Shown here piece by piece: positions 7,284 through 14,665 of a stretch of 64,000 nucleotides of DNA. The translations under genes and the position numbers were made by a program. Location of the stretch: the NCBI RefSeq assembly GCF_001684965.1, contig NZ_MAYG01000001.1, forward strand, positions 2,356,001-2,420,000. The letters are read 5' to 3'. This DNA is from Chryseobacterium arthrosphaerae (lineage in GTDB: Bacteria > Bacteroidota > Bacteroidia > Flavobacteriales > Weeksellaceae). The notes beneath the pieces were generated by a model. The model had not been told where the DNA came from and did no database searches. It saw only the letters and a program-made list of their open reading frames with translations. How positions within the stretch are numbered: the stretch's first letter is position 1; the number at the start of each line of letters is the position of its first letter.

Positions 7284-9005
7284 ATGAACAAGACACTCTC
7301 AATAGGACTCGCAGGTTTTTCTTTTACAATAGAAGAACACGCATATATAAAGCTCAGCGATTACCTGAACGCTCTTAGAAGCTCACTGGATGTTTCGGAG
7401 GCAGATGAGGTAATGCATGACATAGAAATAAGAATGGTGGAGATCTTCAAAGACTCTCTTGGAAAACGTGAAGTGATCAACGATACGGATGTAGAAAAAG
7501 TAATCGCACAGATCGGAACGCCTGAGAAAATAGAAGAACAGGAAGAAGCTTATTTTTCTGAAAAAAACACAACTAAAAATACCCATTCAGGAACCAACTA
7601 TTCAGACAAAAAACAGCTGTTCCGTGATCCTGAAAAACAAAAAATCGCAGGGGTATGTGCCGGTTTAGCGCAATACGTTGGAATGGACATTACTGCCATG
7701 AGAGCCATCTGGCTTGGAGTTTTCGTTCTGGGAATTTTCACGGCAGCCATTTCCTCTTCATTGATCGGACTTCTATATGTAATCCTTTGGATCGTACTTC
7801 CAAAAGCTGAAACCGCAGCAGATTTCCTGAAAATGCAGGGAAAGCCTATGAACTTCGACAATCTTAAGAATGAGTCTAATAAATTGGTACAGTTTGCCAA
7901 TGAATCTACTCAGAGGGTCGGAGAAATATACAACGAAAACAAACCTTACATCAATAACGCAGGAAGCGGAGTATGGAATATACTGAAATATATTGTAGGC
8001 GGAATCTTCGTATTGATGGCAGTAGGAAGTATTATAGGAGTATTTGTATTATTCGGGCTTTTCGGAATGGATACGGACTTCCCGGGAGCTAATGAGATCA
8101 GATTCTATATGGATGATCAGGGACTGGATAAAGTACTGGCAGCCATGATGGTGATCGGAAGCTTAATTCCTGCAATTCTCTTCAGCTTATTAAGCATCAA
8201 GATTTTCTCTCCAAAAACAAAGCTGAGAAACATCGGATGGGTAGTCGGAGGTCTGTTTCTTCTTCTGATCGGGCTTGGAACATACTTCGGTATCAGCATG
8301 GCCAAGAAAAACATGATCTACAGAGGAAGTAAGGAGGATACTGAAAATATAGCGATCAACACAACTTCTGATACGGTATACGTAGATATGAAACAGGTAA
8401 GCATCCCGCAGAACTACAAAGCCTATAACGATGATATTTATTCAGATAAGAGAAACGTTTATGAAGAAGACTATGTTTCTGTAGAAGTGACAAGAAAACC
8501 GGATATCAAAACGCCTTATCTGATCATCAAAAAAGAAGGCAACGGATATAACTTCCCAATTCAGCTTACCGTTCCTGTAGAAGTTGTTGACAATAAAGTG
8601 ATGCTTCCCAACTTCGTAAAGTATCCGTATGAGCACAGATTCAGAGATTACAGAGTAAACTATGAACTGGTAGTACCATTGAAAGCAAGGGTAATTTCTA
8701 TGAACAAGAACAGAATCAATATGGACGGAGACCTTGATGGTGACGGCATTAATGACGATGATCAGGACAGAGATGAAAATGAAGACAAAATCAGAATCGA
8801 AAAGAATAAGATCACTGTAAACGGTTCCAGCATTGTATATGATTCCAATGATAAAGACAGCATCATCATCAACGGTAAAAAAGTGCCTAACAACCAGGCT
8901 AAGAAAGTAATTGATTCTGTAACATCCGATATCAAAAAAATCAACAAGGATGTAGACATCAAAATCAAAGACGGAAAAAACGAAATTTCCATACAAACTA
9001 AATAA
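7284..9005 (+). CDS. PspC-domain membrane protein with acidic aspartate-rich linker
   Basis: A 573-residue inner-membrane protein. Residues 1-95 form a soluble helical prefix (LSDYLNALRSSLDVSEADEVMHDIE region) similar to the HAAS/permease-prefix type. The PspC domain lies at about 110-175 (LFRDPEKQKIAGVCAGLAQYVGMD, then two TM helices). Further TM segments lie at about 232-258, 285-305 and 313-335. The C-terminal 230 residues are extracytoplasmic and beta-rich, with a strongly acidic stretch near 477-497 (DGDLDGDGINDDDQDRDENED) that looks like tandem calcium-binding loops. The likely role is envelope-stress sensing together with the upstream PadR; this is inferred from domains only. Confidence 0.88.
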   Translation: MNKTLSIGLAGFSFTIEEHAYIKLSDYLNALRSSLDVSEADEVMHDIEIRMVEIFKDSLGKREVINDTDVEKVIAQIGTPEKIEEQEEAYFSEKNTTKNTHSGTNYSDKKQLFRDPEKQKIAGVCAGLAQYVGMDITAMRAIWLGVFVLGIFTAAISSSLIGLLYVILWIVLPKAETAADFLKMQGKPMNFDNLKNESNKLVQFANESTQRVGEIYNENKPYINNAGSGVWNILKYIVGGIFVLMAVGSIIGVFVLFGLFGMDTDFPGANEIRFYMDDQGLDKVLAAMMVIGSLIPAILFSLLSIKIFSPKTKLRNIGWVVGGLFLLLIGLGTYFGISMAKKNMIYRGSKEDTENIAINTTSDTVYVDMKQVSIPQNYKAYNDDIYSDKRNVYEEDYVSVEVTRKPDIKTPYLIIKKEGNGYNFPIQLTVPVEVVDNKVMLPNFVKYPYEHRFRDYRVNYELVVPLKARVISMNKNRINMDGDLDGDGINDDDQDRDENEDKIRIEKNKITVNGSSIVYDSNDKDSIIINGKKVPNNQAKKVIDSVTSDIKKINKDVDIKIKDGKNEISIQTK

Positions 9006-10399: not shown

Positions 10400-10421
10400 G
10401 CTGAAAAAACATACAACATAG

Positions 10422-10450
10422 AAAACTCAATTTTTTTGAGTTTTTTTTAT
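10422..10450 (+). terminator. Rho-independent terminator after the thioesterase
   Basis: Stem AAAACTCAA / TTGAGTTTT around a T5 loop, followed by further T residues. It insulates the thioesterase from the ECF-type promoter that begins nine bases later. Confidence 0.8.
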
Positions 10451-10458
10451 ATCCTTAC

Positions 10459-10489
10459 TGCAACCTTTTTATTTTCCCGCATCCTATAA
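10459..10489 (+). promoter_or_regulatory. ECF-sigma-type promoter, copy 1 (TGCAACC-N14-CATCCTATAA)
   Basis: TGCAACC at 10459-10465 and CATCCTATAA at 10480-10489 are separated by 14 T-rich bases. The same two blocks with the same spacing occur upstream of the second lipoprotein gene (11665-11695). An AAC-containing -35 and a -10 with a TC core are characteristic of ECF sigma factors, and an ECF sigma gene lies in this cassette. Confidence 0.6.
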
Positions 10490-10501
10490 AAAACAATAAC
10501 C

Positions 10502-11572
10502 ATGAAAATTCAATTTTTAGCTTTTTTAGCCGTATTTATTTTCTTTGTTTCCTGTAATGAAGATTCAGATCCTGTAGAGAAAACAGCGTCTTATGATGTA
10601 TATGTGGGCGGCGTAGACAATTTCAAGGCAGCTTACTGGAAAAACGGACAGCAGACATTTGTACAGGGAGGAGACAACCTGATGGGAACTCAGATCATTG
10701 TAGACCATAATGATGTTTACCTTTTCGGAACAAATATTGAAAAGATAGATCCTACCCCGGCATGGTACTTCTGGAAAAATGGAGTAAAACACAATATTGC
10801 GCAGTATTTAAACAGTACAAACGACAGTCATTTTTCCATACTAGGGAAAATGGAAGTTCATAACGGAGATATTTACTTTTTAGGAACGGCAACCAACCCT
10901 TCTCCTGCTTCTTCACAGGATCTTTATCAATACTGCTATTGGAAAAACGGTGTAAAAACTGTTTTAGAAACATACGGACAAGGCAATTCTATCATGCCGG
11001 GTGGTGGTATAAAAGTCTATAATAACGACATATACGTTGCAGTACGCAAAAATTTCAGCTATTTTCCTGTTCCTTCATGGGATCTCGGATATTATAGGAA
11101 CGGAAACTACCATCTTCTTGCGAGTACAGGTACAATTGTCCCTCATAGTTTTATCAATGATCCTTCCAATCCCTCACAATTTTATATGCTGACAGGAAAT
11201 GCAGATACCCCTACCAATCCAAGCAATCCAAACGATATCTCTTCTGTTAAAAATATCACGTCAGGAAGTGATATCCAGGTTCCGGCCAATATTCTCCAAA
11301 GTAATATAACCGATATGCGTTTTGAAGGTTCTGACAAATATTATATCGGTAAGAAATTTTATTATAAAAACAGTAATCTGGTACAGCTAAATGATCCGGC
11401 CGGGTTCAATAGTATCGGGCACTTTGAAGTAAAGGATCAGAATATCTACATGACAAGGCTTAATCTTGACCAGAATTCTGTAAAATTTTATATTAATGAC
11501 GTAGAAACGTTAAGTCTTTCCGATATCACGAAAGGATGCTTCAACTCTATTTTTGTTGTAAAGAAAAACTAA
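10502..11572 (+). CDS. YWKNG-repeat lipoprotein, paralog 1
   Basis: A 356-residue lipoprotein. The signal peptide MKIQFLAFLAVFIFFVSCNED gives a lipobox cysteine at residue 19. The mature part is made of repeated beta units, each with an aromatic-KNG turn: AAYWKNGQQTF, WYFWKNGVKHN, YCYWKNGVKTV, LGYYRNGNYHL, KFYYKNSNLVQ. This suggests a propeller-like fold. It is clearly homologous to the next gene, including the opening SYDVYVGG and the ending FNSIFVVKKN. It has its own promoter and terminator, so it is probably monocistronic. Function is unknown; a surface sensor or ligand-binding role in the adjacent sigma-factor system is inference. Confidence 0.8.
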   Translation: MKIQFLAFLAVFIFFVSCNEDSDPVEKTASYDVYVGGVDNFKAAYWKNGQQTFVQGGDNLMGTQIIVDHNDVYLFGTNIEKIDPTPAWYFWKNGVKHNIAQYLNSTNDSHFSILGKMEVHNGDIYFLGTATNPSPASSQDLYQYCYWKNGVKTVLETYGQGNSIMPGGGIKVYNNDIYVAVRKNFSYFPVPSWDLGYYRNGNYHLLASTGTIVPHSFINDPSNPSQFYMLTGNADTPTNPSNPNDISSVKNITSGSDIQVPANILQSNITDMRFEGSDKYYIGKKFYYKNSNLVQLNDPAGFNSIGHFEVKDQNIYMTRLNLDQNSVKFYINDVETLSLSDITKGCFNSIFVVKKN

Positions 11573-11604
11573 CATATCATCCTTATACTTGTTAGCCTTA
11601 TGAG

Positions 11605-11633
11605 CAAATTCCCGTTTTGGGAATTTGTTTTTG
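11605..11633 (+). terminator. Rho-independent terminator between the two lipoprotein genes
   Basis: Perfect stem CAAATTCCC / GGGAATTTG around a GTTTT loop, followed by TTTTTG. Confidence 0.85.
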
Positions 11634-11664
11634 TTTTCAGATAAGTATTTTTTCTTATCATTGC

Positions 11665-11695
11665 TGCAACCTTTTTTTCTTTTTTCATCTTATAA
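11665..11695 (+). promoter_or_regulatory. ECF-sigma-type promoter, copy 2 (TGCAACC-N14-CATCTTATAA)
   Basis: TGCAACC at 11665-11671 and CATCTTATAA at 11686-11695 with 14 bases between, matching the promoter of paralog 1 in both blocks and spacing. It would drive the lipoprotein 2-sigma-OMP operon, making the sigma factor positively autoregulated. Confidence 0.6.
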
Positions 11696-11707
11696 TAAAA
11701 AAGAACT

Positions 11708-12682
11708 ATGAAAAAATTATTTATTCCTTTTTTATTCATCTTTATGGTGCTCATTTCCTGTAAAAGTGATGATATTGAGATTTTAGAAGAAAAAACAGTT
11801 TCTTATGACGTGTATGTTACCGGGAGCGAAAACAATACGGCCTGCTATTGGAAAAACGGACAAAAAACGAATTTACCGGGAGGAGCCGGTATAAATCCGT
11901 CAAAAATCATTGTAGAGAACAATCATATCTATGTTTTTGAAAGTTCTGCCTTCTGGAAAGATGGAATCAAGACAGACATAAGACAATACCTTGCTGTTCC
12001 TGCAGCCCTGTTATTAAATATCCGGGAATTTTATGTTGAAAATGATAATGTTTATCTCCTGGGATATGTTGAAGATCCTAATCCTGCAGCTCCTTCACAA
12101 AAATACCAGTTCTGTTACTGGAAAAACGGAATAAAAACCGTGGTTGCTACCGATCCTGGGGAAATGGTCTTTAACAATTCGGGGTATTCTATGACTGTGT
12201 TTCAGTCTACAGTATACATTTCCGGACATCAAAAGATAAATGGTACGGTGAGTTCCGGCTATTTCAAAAGCGGAGTTTTTTATCCTGTTACACAGGGATA
12301 TCAATCCAATTCAATTTCTTCTGACAATACTGCAATTTATCTGTCAGTTAACCGTTTTTACAAAAATTTAATCACCGGAATAGAAACCCAGCTCACCCCG
12401 ATTCCGACCGGATTGAATTTAATTACAAACAAAATTCTGATTGATCATACTGATATTTACCGGTCAGGTTTCAGCACTTATTATAAAAATGCAGTCGAAG
12501 TACCTGTCACAGGTCCGCCATTCAACGGCATTGCAGATATGAAAGTTCTGGATGGAAACATATATATGATAAGATGGTCTGATGGCTCTCTTCTGAATTA
12601 TAAAGTTTTCATTAATGATGTTGAAACCCAAATGACAAGCGGTAACGGCAGGTTCAATTCAATTTTTGTGGTAAAAAACTAA
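11708..12682 (+). CDS. YWKNG-repeat lipoprotein, paralog 2
   Basis: A 324-residue lipoprotein (signal MKKLFIPFLFIFMVLISCKSDD, lipobox Cys at 18). It is a paralog of the preceding lipoprotein with the same repeat pattern (ACYWKNGQKTN, SAFWKDGIKTD, FCYWKNGIKTV, SGYFKSGVFYP, STYYKNAVEVP) and the same end, FNSIFVVKN. It stops eight bases before the ATG of the ECF sigma gene, so it heads a lipoprotein-sigma-OMP operon under promoter copy 2. Pairwise the two paralogs look well diverged, so this is not a very recent duplication. Confidence 0.8.
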   Translation: MKKLFIPFLFIFMVLISCKSDDIEILEEKTVSYDVYVTGSENNTACYWKNGQKTNLPGGAGINPSKIIVENNHIYVFESSAFWKDGIKTDIRQYLAVPAALLLNIREFYVENDNVYLLGYVEDPNPAAPSQKYQFCYWKNGIKTVVATDPGEMVFNNSGYSMTVFQSTVYISGHQKINGTVSSGYFKSGVFYPVTQGYQSNSISSDNTAIYLSVNRFYKNLITGIETQLTPIPTGLNLITNKILIDHTDIYRSGFSTYYKNAVEVPVTGPPFNGIADMKVLDGNIYMIRWSDGSLLNYKVFINDVETQMTSGNGRFNSIFVVKN

Positions 12683-12690
12683 TACCATTG

Positions 12691-13776
12691 ATGACAAAGA
12701 CCCATGACTGGCAAAAAATCTACAGTGCATACTCCCCAAAACTCCTGGGGATTTGCCGCAGATATATACAGGATATACATACCGCAGAGGATGTCCTTCA
12801 GGACAGCTTCATGGCAGGAATACAAAATATTCATCAGCTTAAAGACGAACAGATGCTCTTTGCCTGGCTCAAAAAAATAGTGGTCAATAATGCATTACAA
12901 TACTTAAGAAAAAGCAGCAAAGAAACTTTTCTCACCGAAGAGCCTTCAGAAATCACTGAAATTTCATTCGCTATGGACGACAATACCGAAGAAAAAACTC
13001 ATGTTCTCGCCTATGATTTCACACAGGAAGAACTGCTGTCCTCTATTGACAGTCTTCCTCTTCACCATAAATCCGTATTTAATTTATATTTTATGGAACA
13101 TTATTCTCACGCTGAAATTGCCAGTCAGCTGGGAATAACCGTTAACACTTCAAAATCTCATCTTTTGAGGGCTAAAAAGGGAATACAGCATTTTCTGCTC
13201 AATCACTTCATTACCTCTGATACGCCTAAAAACAAAAAGAAAATCACCCAACTTCTTGTTTTTCTTGGTTTTGCCAATCTATTATGGGCGCAGACCTTCA
13301 AAACAAAATTTTCCGGTTTTTCAATTTCTCCATCCAGAGCATTGGAACTTCCCGAGCATGCTGCACTACAATGGCCATCTTTTCCAGTAAAGCATAACTT
13401 TTACAGAAAAACGGCATCGTTAACAATCATTGGAGTGACTTTTTTCATTCTCACAGTAAGTTCTGTTATTATTTTCCGCCCCAATCCTCTCAATTCTGTT
13501 AAAAGGACTTTCTTTAAAGGTTCAGAAAAAAATGTTCAGAACCGAGAAAATCAAAAGGGACCGGACAGCCAGGGCAATACAGAAAACGGAGGACAAATAC
13601 CCCCTGAAAAACAAGCTGAAAAAACTGTGCCTGCCTTTCTTATTTCAGAAGAAAAAGTAAGCAGTATCAAATCCAAAGAGCATCAGAAAAGAATACAAGA
13701 TACGGCAGAAGCTCCCCAAAAGATTATTGTTGTGAAAAAAATAATACAAAGAGACACCGTCTATATTGAAAGATAA
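12691..13776 (+). CDS. ECF sigma factor fused to a transmembrane and periplasmic tail
   Basis: A 361-residue protein. Residues 1-75 are sigma region 2 (YSAYSPKLLGICRRYIQ..AEDVLQDSFMAG) and 112-170 are sigma region 4 with the helix-turn-helix HAEIASQLGITVNTSKSHLLRAKKG. Ordinary ECF factors end near here. This one continues with a signal-peptide-like hydrophobic stretch (185-200, QLLVFLGFANLLWA then Q), a clear TM helix (242-262, ASLTIIGVTFFILTVSSVIIF) and a charged tail of about 100 residues ending IIQRDTVYIER. The next protein begins with similar DTVY motifs. ATG 12691 is preferred to the TTG one codon earlier. No separate anti-sigma gene is present, so the tail may anchor and control the sigma domain; this is inference. 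Confidence 0.88.
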   Translation: MTKTHDWQKIYSAYSPKLLGICRRYIQDIHTAEDVLQDSFMAGIQNIHQLKDEQMLFAWLKKIVVNNALQYLRKSSKETFLTEEPSEITEISFAMDDNTEEKTHVLAYDFTQEELLSSIDSLPLHHKSVFNLYFMEHYSHAEIASQLGITVNTSKSHLLRAKKGIQHFLLNHFITSDTPKNKKKITQLLVFLGFANLLWAQTFKTKFSGFSISPSRALELPEHAALQWPSFPVKHNFYRKTASLTIIGVTFFILTVSSVIIFRPNPLNSVKRTFFKGSEKNVQNRENQKGPDSQGNTENGGQIPPEKQAEKTVPAFLISEEKVSSIKSKEHQKRIQDTAEAPQKIIVVKKIIQRDTVYIER

Positions 13777-13789
13777 ATTATTAATACCC

Positions 13790-14665
13790 ATGTTTTCAAA
13801 AAAATCATTTTTCATTTTTTTCATCCTTATTCTACAGACCTTCCATGCTCAGAGGAAAAAGGCAGATACGGTATATGTTTATGAAAAGGTCATTGTTTAT
13901 GACACCGTTTATCTTGAAAAAGCTTTAAAAATACAGCCTGCCGGAATTTCCATAAAACTTCCTCCTGTATGGAATACAGAAATTACAGAGATGATTTCCT
14001 ATAAAGATGAAGTTAAAGGAGTAGAAGTTAAACTTTCCCAAAGATTTCAGTTCGGAGCGGGTATTGAAGCAGGCATCAAGAAAGGTTTCTGGTCAAAAGG
14101 CTTCTCTGAAAAAGATTCACAGTCAGGATTTGGAGCCGGTATCTGGGCTTCGAAACCCATCTATAAAAGGTTTTCTGTAATGTTGTCTGCCCACATTTAC
14201 CATTGGAACTCTACTTTTGACCTGGATGCGAATAAAGAGGATACCTGGCTGAACGGTTTCTATTTCTCTGAAGATCGGCAACCTCTTCTCTTTCAGAAAT
14301 TCAACAATAAACATTTTGAATATGATCTGCAGTTAAAGCTTCTTTATGACTGGAATAATATCCGTCCTTTCACAGGCTTTCTTGTCAACAAAAACACTTA
14401 TAAAATGCAGTTCCTGGTTCCGGAAAATAAGGTATTGAGTAAGCTTGATGATTTTAAATCAGATCAGATCAATTTCGGCTTTTCTTTGGGAATCCAGTAT
14501 TTGCTTCTGAAAAAATTCCTTGTCTCTTTAGAATATCAGGAATACAAAATGAAGAATATAAGATTAAAAAACAGTGATTTTAATTTTGACATCTTTAAGA
14601 CTAATAATACCTTTGCAGAAAGGAAAATCAACCTCGGAATTTCCTATATTATTTCCGGCCGCTGA
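13790..14665 (+). CDS. Outer-membrane beta-barrel protein, partner of the sigma factor
   Basis: A 291-residue protein. Start ATG 13790 gives a proper signal peptide (MFSKKSFFIFFILILQTFHAQ); the longer reading frame overlaps the sigma gene and is rejected. The mature N terminus carries ADTVYVYEKVIVYDTVYLEK, echoing the DTVYIER end of the upstream sigma protein. The rest alternates hydrophobic and polar residues with many aromatic and Gly positions (FQFGAGIEAGIKKGFW, INFGFSLGIQYLLLKK, KINLGISYIISGR), as in an 8-10-strand porin-like barrel. It starts 13 bases after the sigma stop, so it is co-transcribed. Its role as a signal-receiving partner is inferred from the operon and the shared motif. 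Confidence 0.75.
   Translation: MFSKKSFFIFFILILQTFHAQRKKADTVYVYEKVIVYDTVYLEKALKIQPAGISIKLPPVWNTEITEMISYKDEVKGVEVKLSQRFQFGAGIEAGIKKGFWSKGFSEKDSQSGFGAGIWASKPIYKRFSVMLSAHIYHWNSTFDLDANKEDTWLNGFYFSEDRQPLLFQKFNNKHFEYDLQLKLLYDWNNIRPFTGFLVNKNTYKMQFLVPENKVLSKLDDFKSDQINFGFSLGIQYLLLKKFLVSLEYQEYKMKNIRLKNSDFNFDIFKTNNTFAERKINLGISYIISGR

Follow-up and report, generated by a model that had tools for sequence, protein, structure and literature searches.

The 64,000-nucleotide stretch analyzed here (the window; positions 2356001-2420000 of contig C1 in a genome of 5,051,444 bases and 35 contigs, G000) carries an operon that probably works as a self-contained switch of the cell envelope, in which an autoregulated sigma factor of the extracytoplasmic function (ECF) type is tethered to the inner membrane by its own C-terminal tail and reports through the outer-membrane beta-barrel protein (OMP) encoded next to it. 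The locus is flanked by a thioesterase gene and a chorismate-binding enzyme gene and has the order hairpin, promoter P1, lipoprotein 1, hairpin, promoter P2, lipoprotein 2, sigma, OMP. The best match of the sigma protein, at 94%, is to a protein named from Chryseobacterium arthrosphaerae, and its closest protein relatives are from Chryseobacterium. Sequence comparison supports the conservation of the tail and of its transmembrane (TM) helix, the linkage to the OMP, the co-occurrence of promoter and sigma, and the position of the promoters, which stand before the operon and before lipoprotein genes, the latter next to sigma and, in two further genomes, on a separate contig. These comparisons argue strongly that the tethered sigma reads these promoters. 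A first-pass annotation had proposed a tethered sigma whose targets are its own operon and the lipoproteins; tail conservation, promoter placement, and sigma-promoter co-occurrence now back that proposal, while for the remainder we infer contact between tail and OMP, inhibition by the tail, and proteolytic release. The parts are ordinary; their combination is unusual and well conserved.

In the mechanism that we envisage, the sigma domain would be held on the cytoplasmic side of the inner membrane by an extension with three parts: an anti-sigma-like stretch (about residues 181-220), a single TM span, and a periplasmic tail that is flexible. The conserved end of the tail would meet the N-terminal strand motif of the neighboring barrel, and sigma would stay inactive as long as the two were paired. 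A change in the barrel or its ligand would lead to cutting or release of the tail, cutting being probably by a site-1 protease and then by an RseP-type site-2 protease. Once free, the sigma domain would start transcription of its own operon and of the beta-propeller lipoprotein genes from TGCAACC-N14-CATCYTATAA.

The 362-residue protein is an ECF sigma factor. PF04542 and PF08281 match above cut-off at the sites of regions 2 and 4, with region 1 or 3 not listed; TIGR02937 scores 77.4 bits (cut-off 42.9), and all 16 matches in the PDB are sigma factors. The best of 93 families, TIGR02985 (Bacteroidetes sigma-70 family 1), scores 103.1 bits, below its cut-off of 126.4. We aligned the window protein with 111 of its 120 listed hits, giving 112 sequences, and found the helix at residues 244-262 above the TM hydropathy threshold in every one. 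The tail that follows is variable in the middle and ends RDTVYIER, an end that fits KK[IV][IV]xR[DE]T... in 107 of the sequences. The 12 residues that precede the helix have a mean net charge of +2.4, against +1.4 after it, and hydropathy and charge fit modestly with a single span and a tail outside the cytoplasm. Full-length orthologues with the tail are present in 86 of 173 genomes of the genus (sigma counted at E ≤ 1e-40) and, in a survey of 296 family genomes from 33 genera, in four genomes of three other genera (G070; G081 and G104; G156); the remaining matches in other genera span the sigma domain only. All four keep a WAQ motif and what by eye is a hydrophobic helix, and their C-termini are related, one of them reading RETIFIKK. 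The first-pass annotation fares well here: regions 2 and 4 are confirmed, the TM helix that it put at 242-262 is predicted two residues shorter, and both the tail ending and the DTVY-type motif of the OMP N-terminus are present.

No separate anti-sigma gene was found among the plus-strand open reading frames of at least 80 amino acids between 9971 and 14689, which are the thioesterase, the two lipoproteins, sigma, and the OMP, again as first noted. In this and neighboring genomes, the gene after a related ECF gene encodes a separate, membrane-anchored, anti-sigma-like protein, whose N-terminus comprises a short helix-like stretch, then a P..(W) motif and a hydrophobic segment. The QTFKxKFxxFxIxPS stretch of the sigma tail has a similar look and is the region picked by hhalign in two of three comparisons. 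We take this likeness as a lead that part of the extension may be anti-sigma-like.

The OMP probably starts at ATG 13790; by eye, its beginning resembles a signal peptide, and ADTVYVYEKVIVYDTVYLEK follows. In the relatives' loci compared first (those of 17 genomes and L030), the genes occupy one genomic slot and the OMP stands directly 3′ of sigma in 18 of 18, the gene order that the first-pass annotation had suggested looking for; a search of genome contigs for related loci returned one true locus (L030) and one distant ECF (L031). The N-termini fit DT[VIL][YV][VI]YE[KN]...[YH]DT[VI]Y in 108 of 120 listed homologues, and residues D34, T35, Y39, D46, and T47 are invariant in 22 OMPs whose identity falls as low as 27%. 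DNA coding for DT[VI][YF]xE[KR] occurs three times in the genome, namely in the sigma tail, the OMP N-terminus, and one unrelated lipoprotein (reversed control, 0); the DNA pattern was slightly wider than this peptide and was picked after both motifs were known, so that it gauges rarity, not interaction.

Exact copies of TGCAACC-N14-CATCYTATAA are confined in the window to P1 and P2, with identical spacing, as had been noticed from the letters alone. Allowing three mismatches adds one match in the window (61947) against a mean chance expectation of 0.45. In the whole 5.05-Mb genome there are just two exact matches, both at the sigma locus, and the promoter is not common at unrelated genes; up to two mismatches adds two more, and since a reversed control pattern gives four matches at that level, only the exact matches stand out. 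A refined pattern likewise found two matches at up to one mismatch and no further copy (control, 0). It was built on the relatives' cis promoters and is therefore partly circular, which accounts for part of its high count near sigma; neither the counts from genomes that lack sigma nor the reversed control is affected by this.

The two blocks each end 12 bases before a lipoprotein ATG and, over 31 bases, agree at 24 positions. We considered whether the shared promoter is a mere by-product of gene duplication and do not favor it, since the 60 bases upstream agree at just 19 positions, and since the motif also stands before a second lipoprotein family and before sigma-OMP where the lipoprotein is absent. 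In the relatives, the block lies 3′ of the thioesterase gene in 17 of 18 loci with the first pattern and in L047 with a second pattern. We collected 39 distinct copies by regular expression, so that the fixed bases are conserved by construction; among the bases flanking this core, a C precedes TGCAAC in 92%, a C precedes ATC in 95%, and an A follows TAT in 92%, and beyond them the flanks are unconserved except for a T-rich run upstream and A-rich bases downstream. Where a propeller lipoprotein is directly downstream, its ATG is mostly 13-17 bases past the block (counted from TAT), and 24-26 in some loci. The AAC in the -35 element and the TC in the -10 element fit ECF promoters in general. According to PMC9723704, the flavobacterial housekeeping box is TAnnTTTG, and an ECF motif of Flavobacterium psychrophilum has CGT in its -10 element.

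Promoter and sigma occur together across the genus. Using the refined motif at up to one mismatch, we found sigma in 86 and the motif in 83 of the 173 genomes: both in 79, sigma only in 7, the motif only in 4, and neither in 83 (Fisher p 2e-35, phylogeny not corrected for). The reversed pattern gave two matches across the same genomes. The motif lies within 8 kb of sigma in 78 of the 86 sigma genomes. The other eight, which are the seven sigma-only genomes and one whose sole match stands away from sigma, have it upstream of sigma with two mismatches (G128, G180, G200, G238, G249, G284, and G287) or three (G237), so that 86 of 86 have a promoter copy near sigma. Conversely, 83 of 87 sigma-less genomes are without the motif, and the four motif-only genomes comprise two with relics of a deleted operon and two with the motif inside other reading frames. 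The relics, in G019 (C4:74806, L117) and G267 (C6:1202034, L187), occupy the home slot and retain the promoter and the 3′ end of the OMP, with lipoprotein and sigma deleted. These two genomes are natural deletions of the lipoprotein, sigma, and most of the OMP. Among the four sigma genomes of other genera, three have the promoter at up to one mismatch, and G070 has it with three mismatches directly before sigma.

While 102 of the 115 motif matches lie within 8 kb of sigma, 13 lie elsewhere. In G001 and G318, the motif precedes an intact YWKN lipoprotein on another contig, flanked by genes that, from their sequence, are presumably sufD-like and DUF3078-like. Contig 3 of G341 has the motif with the same neighbors and contig 54 of G015 has it with one of them, the lipoprotein being lost in both. 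A second copy in G341, on contig 1, stands about 108 bases before a 503-residue secreted protein. In sigma-bearing G288 (C46:562798, L178), a one-mismatch copy stands 19 bases before the ATG of what is presumably an smpB-like gene; it could be chance or a further target, a promoter role being conceivable. The copies in G339, G016, and G218 are inside reading frames and look like chance.

Lipoprotein 2 has seven YWKN-type motifs and, judged from its predicted structure, is probably a beta-propeller of seven blades. Foldseek and VIA, run on lipoprotein 2, recovered the propeller fold and did not reveal a function; a solved-structure search with the lipoprotein profile gave no match, and no Pfam family matched lipoprotein 1. 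The BtuG-type surface propeller lipoproteins of Bacteroides ranked level with many unrelated propellers, at 9-16% identity, and nothing points to a common ligand. We infer that the propeller lipoproteins are on the cell surface. In several genomes, the same promoter also precedes lipoproteins of a second family, 151-155 residues long (INFQLIGKGN... and relatives), at L038, L039, L040, L108, L174, and L185.

Several observations weigh against a tethered sigma that reports through the OMP. The signature common to tail and OMP is not universal: in G070, G081, and G104 the tail ends [RK]VKVYVEK, without the DT that is kept in the OMPs of these genomes. A split between tail and OMP motif residues that looked clean by eye in 19 sequences failed in 53 loci, where no clean covariation was seen, and was dropped. 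The hhalign matches to the anti-sigma-like proteins (12 of the 14 collected) are weak, with 18 columns at probabilities of 5 and 15% and E values of 0.007 and 0.002 in single comparisons (reversed controls, 1.5 and 0.1%), and the third cut of the tail aligned the TM helix alone (3%). The AlphaFold model of the whole sigma (predicted local distance difference test, pLDDT, 59.8; predicted template modeling score, pTM, 0.28) is too poor to judge packing of the extension on sigma. The charge difference across the TM helix is modest, and the hydrophobic helix at residues 187-203 is borderline and as a second span would place the tail in the cytoplasm. On the side of the promoter, the 14 bases 3′ of the P1 and P2 blocks, which are A-rich, also agree at 10 positions, the genome has 20 sigma matches at E ≤ 0.001 (query included), the co-occurrence statistic ignores the shared ancestry of the genomes, and an exact promoter copy in G014 adjoins a different ECF operon.

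Because the DT is missing from three of the four tails of other genera, a more specific version of our proposal becomes slightly less likely, and we offer it tentatively: a two-protein relay across the envelope, in which sigma, fused to its own inner-membrane anti-sigma part, would span the periplasm and dock on a dedicated barrel through a beta-strand signature, DT[VI]Y-E[RK], present on both, and would govern a very small private regulon of propeller lipoproteins. We met no counterpart of such a relay in the literature searched.

The same missing DT, together with the lack of clean covariation, would also suit a sigma that is tethered and autoregulated and for which the OMP is merely a target, the signal acting on the tail or on the propeller lipoproteins; gene order by itself is no proof of contact. 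We consider this unlikely, since the adjacency of sigma and OMP is unbroken in the loci compared, whereas the lipoprotein can be absent (G008 and G026). The coding pattern of the signature also occurs just once elsewhere in the genome, and the OMP motif outlasts the divergence of the barrel.

It is more doubtful still that the promoters are served by another sigma or regulator and that the tethered sigma controls something else. The number of sigma matches in the genome leaves room for this, and so do the copies in G014 (C7:9407, L120), with no mismatch, and G180 (C26:25854, L180), with one, both of which are downstream of a corresponding, different ECF/anti-sigma operon. Cross-talk between ECFs is possible at these two sites. 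Set against this are the distribution of the motif, which within the genus and at up to one mismatch is present in 79 of the 86 genomes with sigma and in 4 of the 87 without it, and the nature of those four, deleted-operon relics or matches inside other reading frames. The G014 and G180 copies precede another lipoprotein-like and another secreted-looking protein.

We likewise give little credence to an altered topology, in which the stretch at 187-203 would be a true span (two spans and a cytoplasmic tail) or a signal cleaved at LLWA|Q, and inhibition would differ from that proposed above. The first-pass annotation had called residues 185-200 signal-like. The stretch is indeed real and conserved, with WAQ of its LLWAQ kept in 105 of the 112 aligned sequences and lysines preceding it, and by eye it resembles a Flavobacteriia signal peptide. 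Since it reaches the TM hydropathy threshold in just 7 of the 112, it is probably not a second span; the mean charge of the segments that separate the two hydrophobic stretches is positive (+1.1 and +0.4), which fits a cytoplasmic location, and with the tail in the cytoplasm, the signature that it has in common with the OMP would serve no purpose. The idea that the tail is a frameshift or fusion artefact absent from close homologues is rejected, as the tail is open and conserved at full length in half of the genus genomes and in three further genera, with broken forms confined to extra copies in G253. In that genome, the 27.8-kb contig C2 (L106 and L107) repeats promoter-lipoprotein-sigma several times in both orientations, and contig C1 has another copy. 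The extra sigma copies are shortened or contain stops, and the repeated loci reflect either amplification or an assembly effect.

Comparison with known systems shows that the tethered, OMP-linked sigma is less novel than the first-pass annotation supposed. The closest mechanistic precedent is IutY of Pseudomonas putida (ECF243), which is described as a sigma/anti-sigma hybrid that acts in cell-surface signaling with the receptor IutA in Pseudomonas iron uptake and is cut by Prc and RseP (PMC5411451, PMC8999054). IutY is there described as combining a cytosolic sigma, one TM segment, and a periplasmic regulatory part in one protein with an outer-membrane partner that has a periplasmic signaling part, an arrangement like that proposed here, where topology comes from hydropathy and charge (PMC5411451, PMC8999054). 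The partner here differs in being a small barrel. The IutY type has a FecR-like domain and a TonB-dependent receptor, neither of which has a Pfam match in sigma or OMP here at E ≤ 1, and the promoter here precedes propeller lipoproteins. Section 3.5 of PMC8999054 describes ECF48, ECF52, and ECF53 of Actinobacteria (e.g., SCO4117) as sigma factors that share with ours a C-terminal membrane extension, in their case a fusion with TM helices from which proteolytic release is expected; they have a zinc-finger anti-sigma domain, whereas none matched in this sigma, and the section does not name an outer-membrane barrel partner of the kind found here. Table 2 of the same paper lists the ECF240 model SIO28919.1 from Chryseobacterium scophthalmum without an anti-sigma and with a regulatory extension (PMC8999054). 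By this entry, it is of the same genus, lacks an anti-sigma, and has an extension as here, and it may belong to the same family as the tethered sigma, so that the protein type may already be catalogued. The claim of a new ECF regulatory type was thus overstated, given the IutY hybrid (PMC5411451, PMC8999054), the membrane-fused ECF48/52/53 (PMC8999054), and the listed ECF240. In a related Pseudomonas system, a receptor signaling domain reportedly shields the anti-sigma from proteolysis, and the logic that we propose for OMP and tail follows by analogy (PMC11637429). For the operon, the promoter, and the OMP signature, a limited literature search, by which absence is not established, found no paper.

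In Dma1 and Dma2 of Bacteroides and M0N98_03760 of Phocaeicola vulgatus, an anti-sigma and a barrel are joined across the periplasm (PMC13088901, PMC9308784). Like these proteins, the pair proposed here would link an inner-membrane part to an outer-membrane barrel across the periplasm. The fusions differ: in Dma, the anti-sigma carries the barrel and sigma is a protein of its own, whereas here the inner-membrane part carries sigma and the barrel stands alone, so that the relay outlined above would be a split, inverted counterpart of Dma. The window genome has another ECF operon, on contig C12, whose anti-sigma-like product of 476 residues ends in a barrel that matches PF13568 above cut-off (L123:5153-6586), so Dma-like proteins also occur in Chryseobacterium. 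The anti-sigma-like proteins of L112 and L115 have similar C-terminal barrel matches below cut-off.

If our proposal is right, the principle of IutY, with no free anti-sigma and a sigma that is membrane-bound until release, reaches Bacteroidota with other parts, and there would be a second route, besides Dma, that links an outer-membrane barrel to RNA polymerase. With a seemingly very small regulon, a rare promoter that marks it, and two genomes that are natural sigma deletions but retain the promoter, a single genus allows direct tests of promoter use, of topology, and of contact between the partners.

The features of the locus are collected in the table. From its hairpins, the locus has two likely transcription units, lipoprotein 1 and lipoprotein 2-sigma-OMP; P2 lies ahead of the latter, as the first-pass annotation had it, with a terminator-like hairpin (11602-11630) setting lipoprotein 1 apart. 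The hairpin 3′ of the thioesterase gene was not returned by a terminator scan, which demands three G-C pairs. For sigma, ATG 12691 is the more likely start than TTG 12688.

Table. Features of the tethered-sigma locus, in window coordinates.
Feature	Coordinates	Strand	Remarks
Terminator-like hairpin and T run, 3′ of thioesterase gene	10421..10449	+	-9.4 kcal/mol, z -4.6
Promoter P1, TGCAACC-N14-CATCCTATAA, ahead of lipoprotein 1	10459..10489	+	Equivalent position in relatives
Lipoprotein 1, 356 aa, YWKN family, Cys18	10502..11572	+	
Terminator-like hairpin closing the lipoprotein 1 unit	11602..11637	+	12-13 pair stem, T run; -15.1 kcal/mol, z -4.9
Promoter P2, TGCAACC-N14-CATCTTATAA, ahead of lipoprotein 2-sigma-OMP	11665..11695	+	
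Lipoprotein 2, 324 aa, predicted beta-propeller	11708..12682	+	pLDDT 88.2, pTM 0.84
ECF sigma with membrane-anchored C-terminal tail	12691..13776	+	ATG 12691; TTG 12688 possible
Sigma region 2, residues 11-78 counted from 12688	12718..12921	+	PF04542, E 5.8e-12
Sigma region 4, residues 114-164	13027..13179	+	PF08281, E 7.4e-13
Conserved helix 181-208 (has LLWAQ), then KFxxFxIxPS stretch; resembles separate anti-sigma N-termini	13228..13335	+	Weak profile match
Transmembrane helix, residues 244-262	13417..13473	+	Hydropathy, 112/112 homologues
Predicted periplasmic tail: variable middle, conserved C-terminal VVKKIIQRDTVYIER	13474..13773	+	
Outer-membrane beta-barrel protein (OMP)	13790..14665	+	PF13505, E 1.9e-6, 28.6 bits, cut-off 28.7
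OMP N-terminal motif DTVYVYEKVIVYDTVYLEK, signature common with sigma tail	13865..13921	+	

Proteins with a PspC domain are often linked to envelope stress. One such membrane protein is encoded at window positions 7284-9005 and lies upstream in 18 of 18 loci; no promoter motif was seen before it in this comparison.

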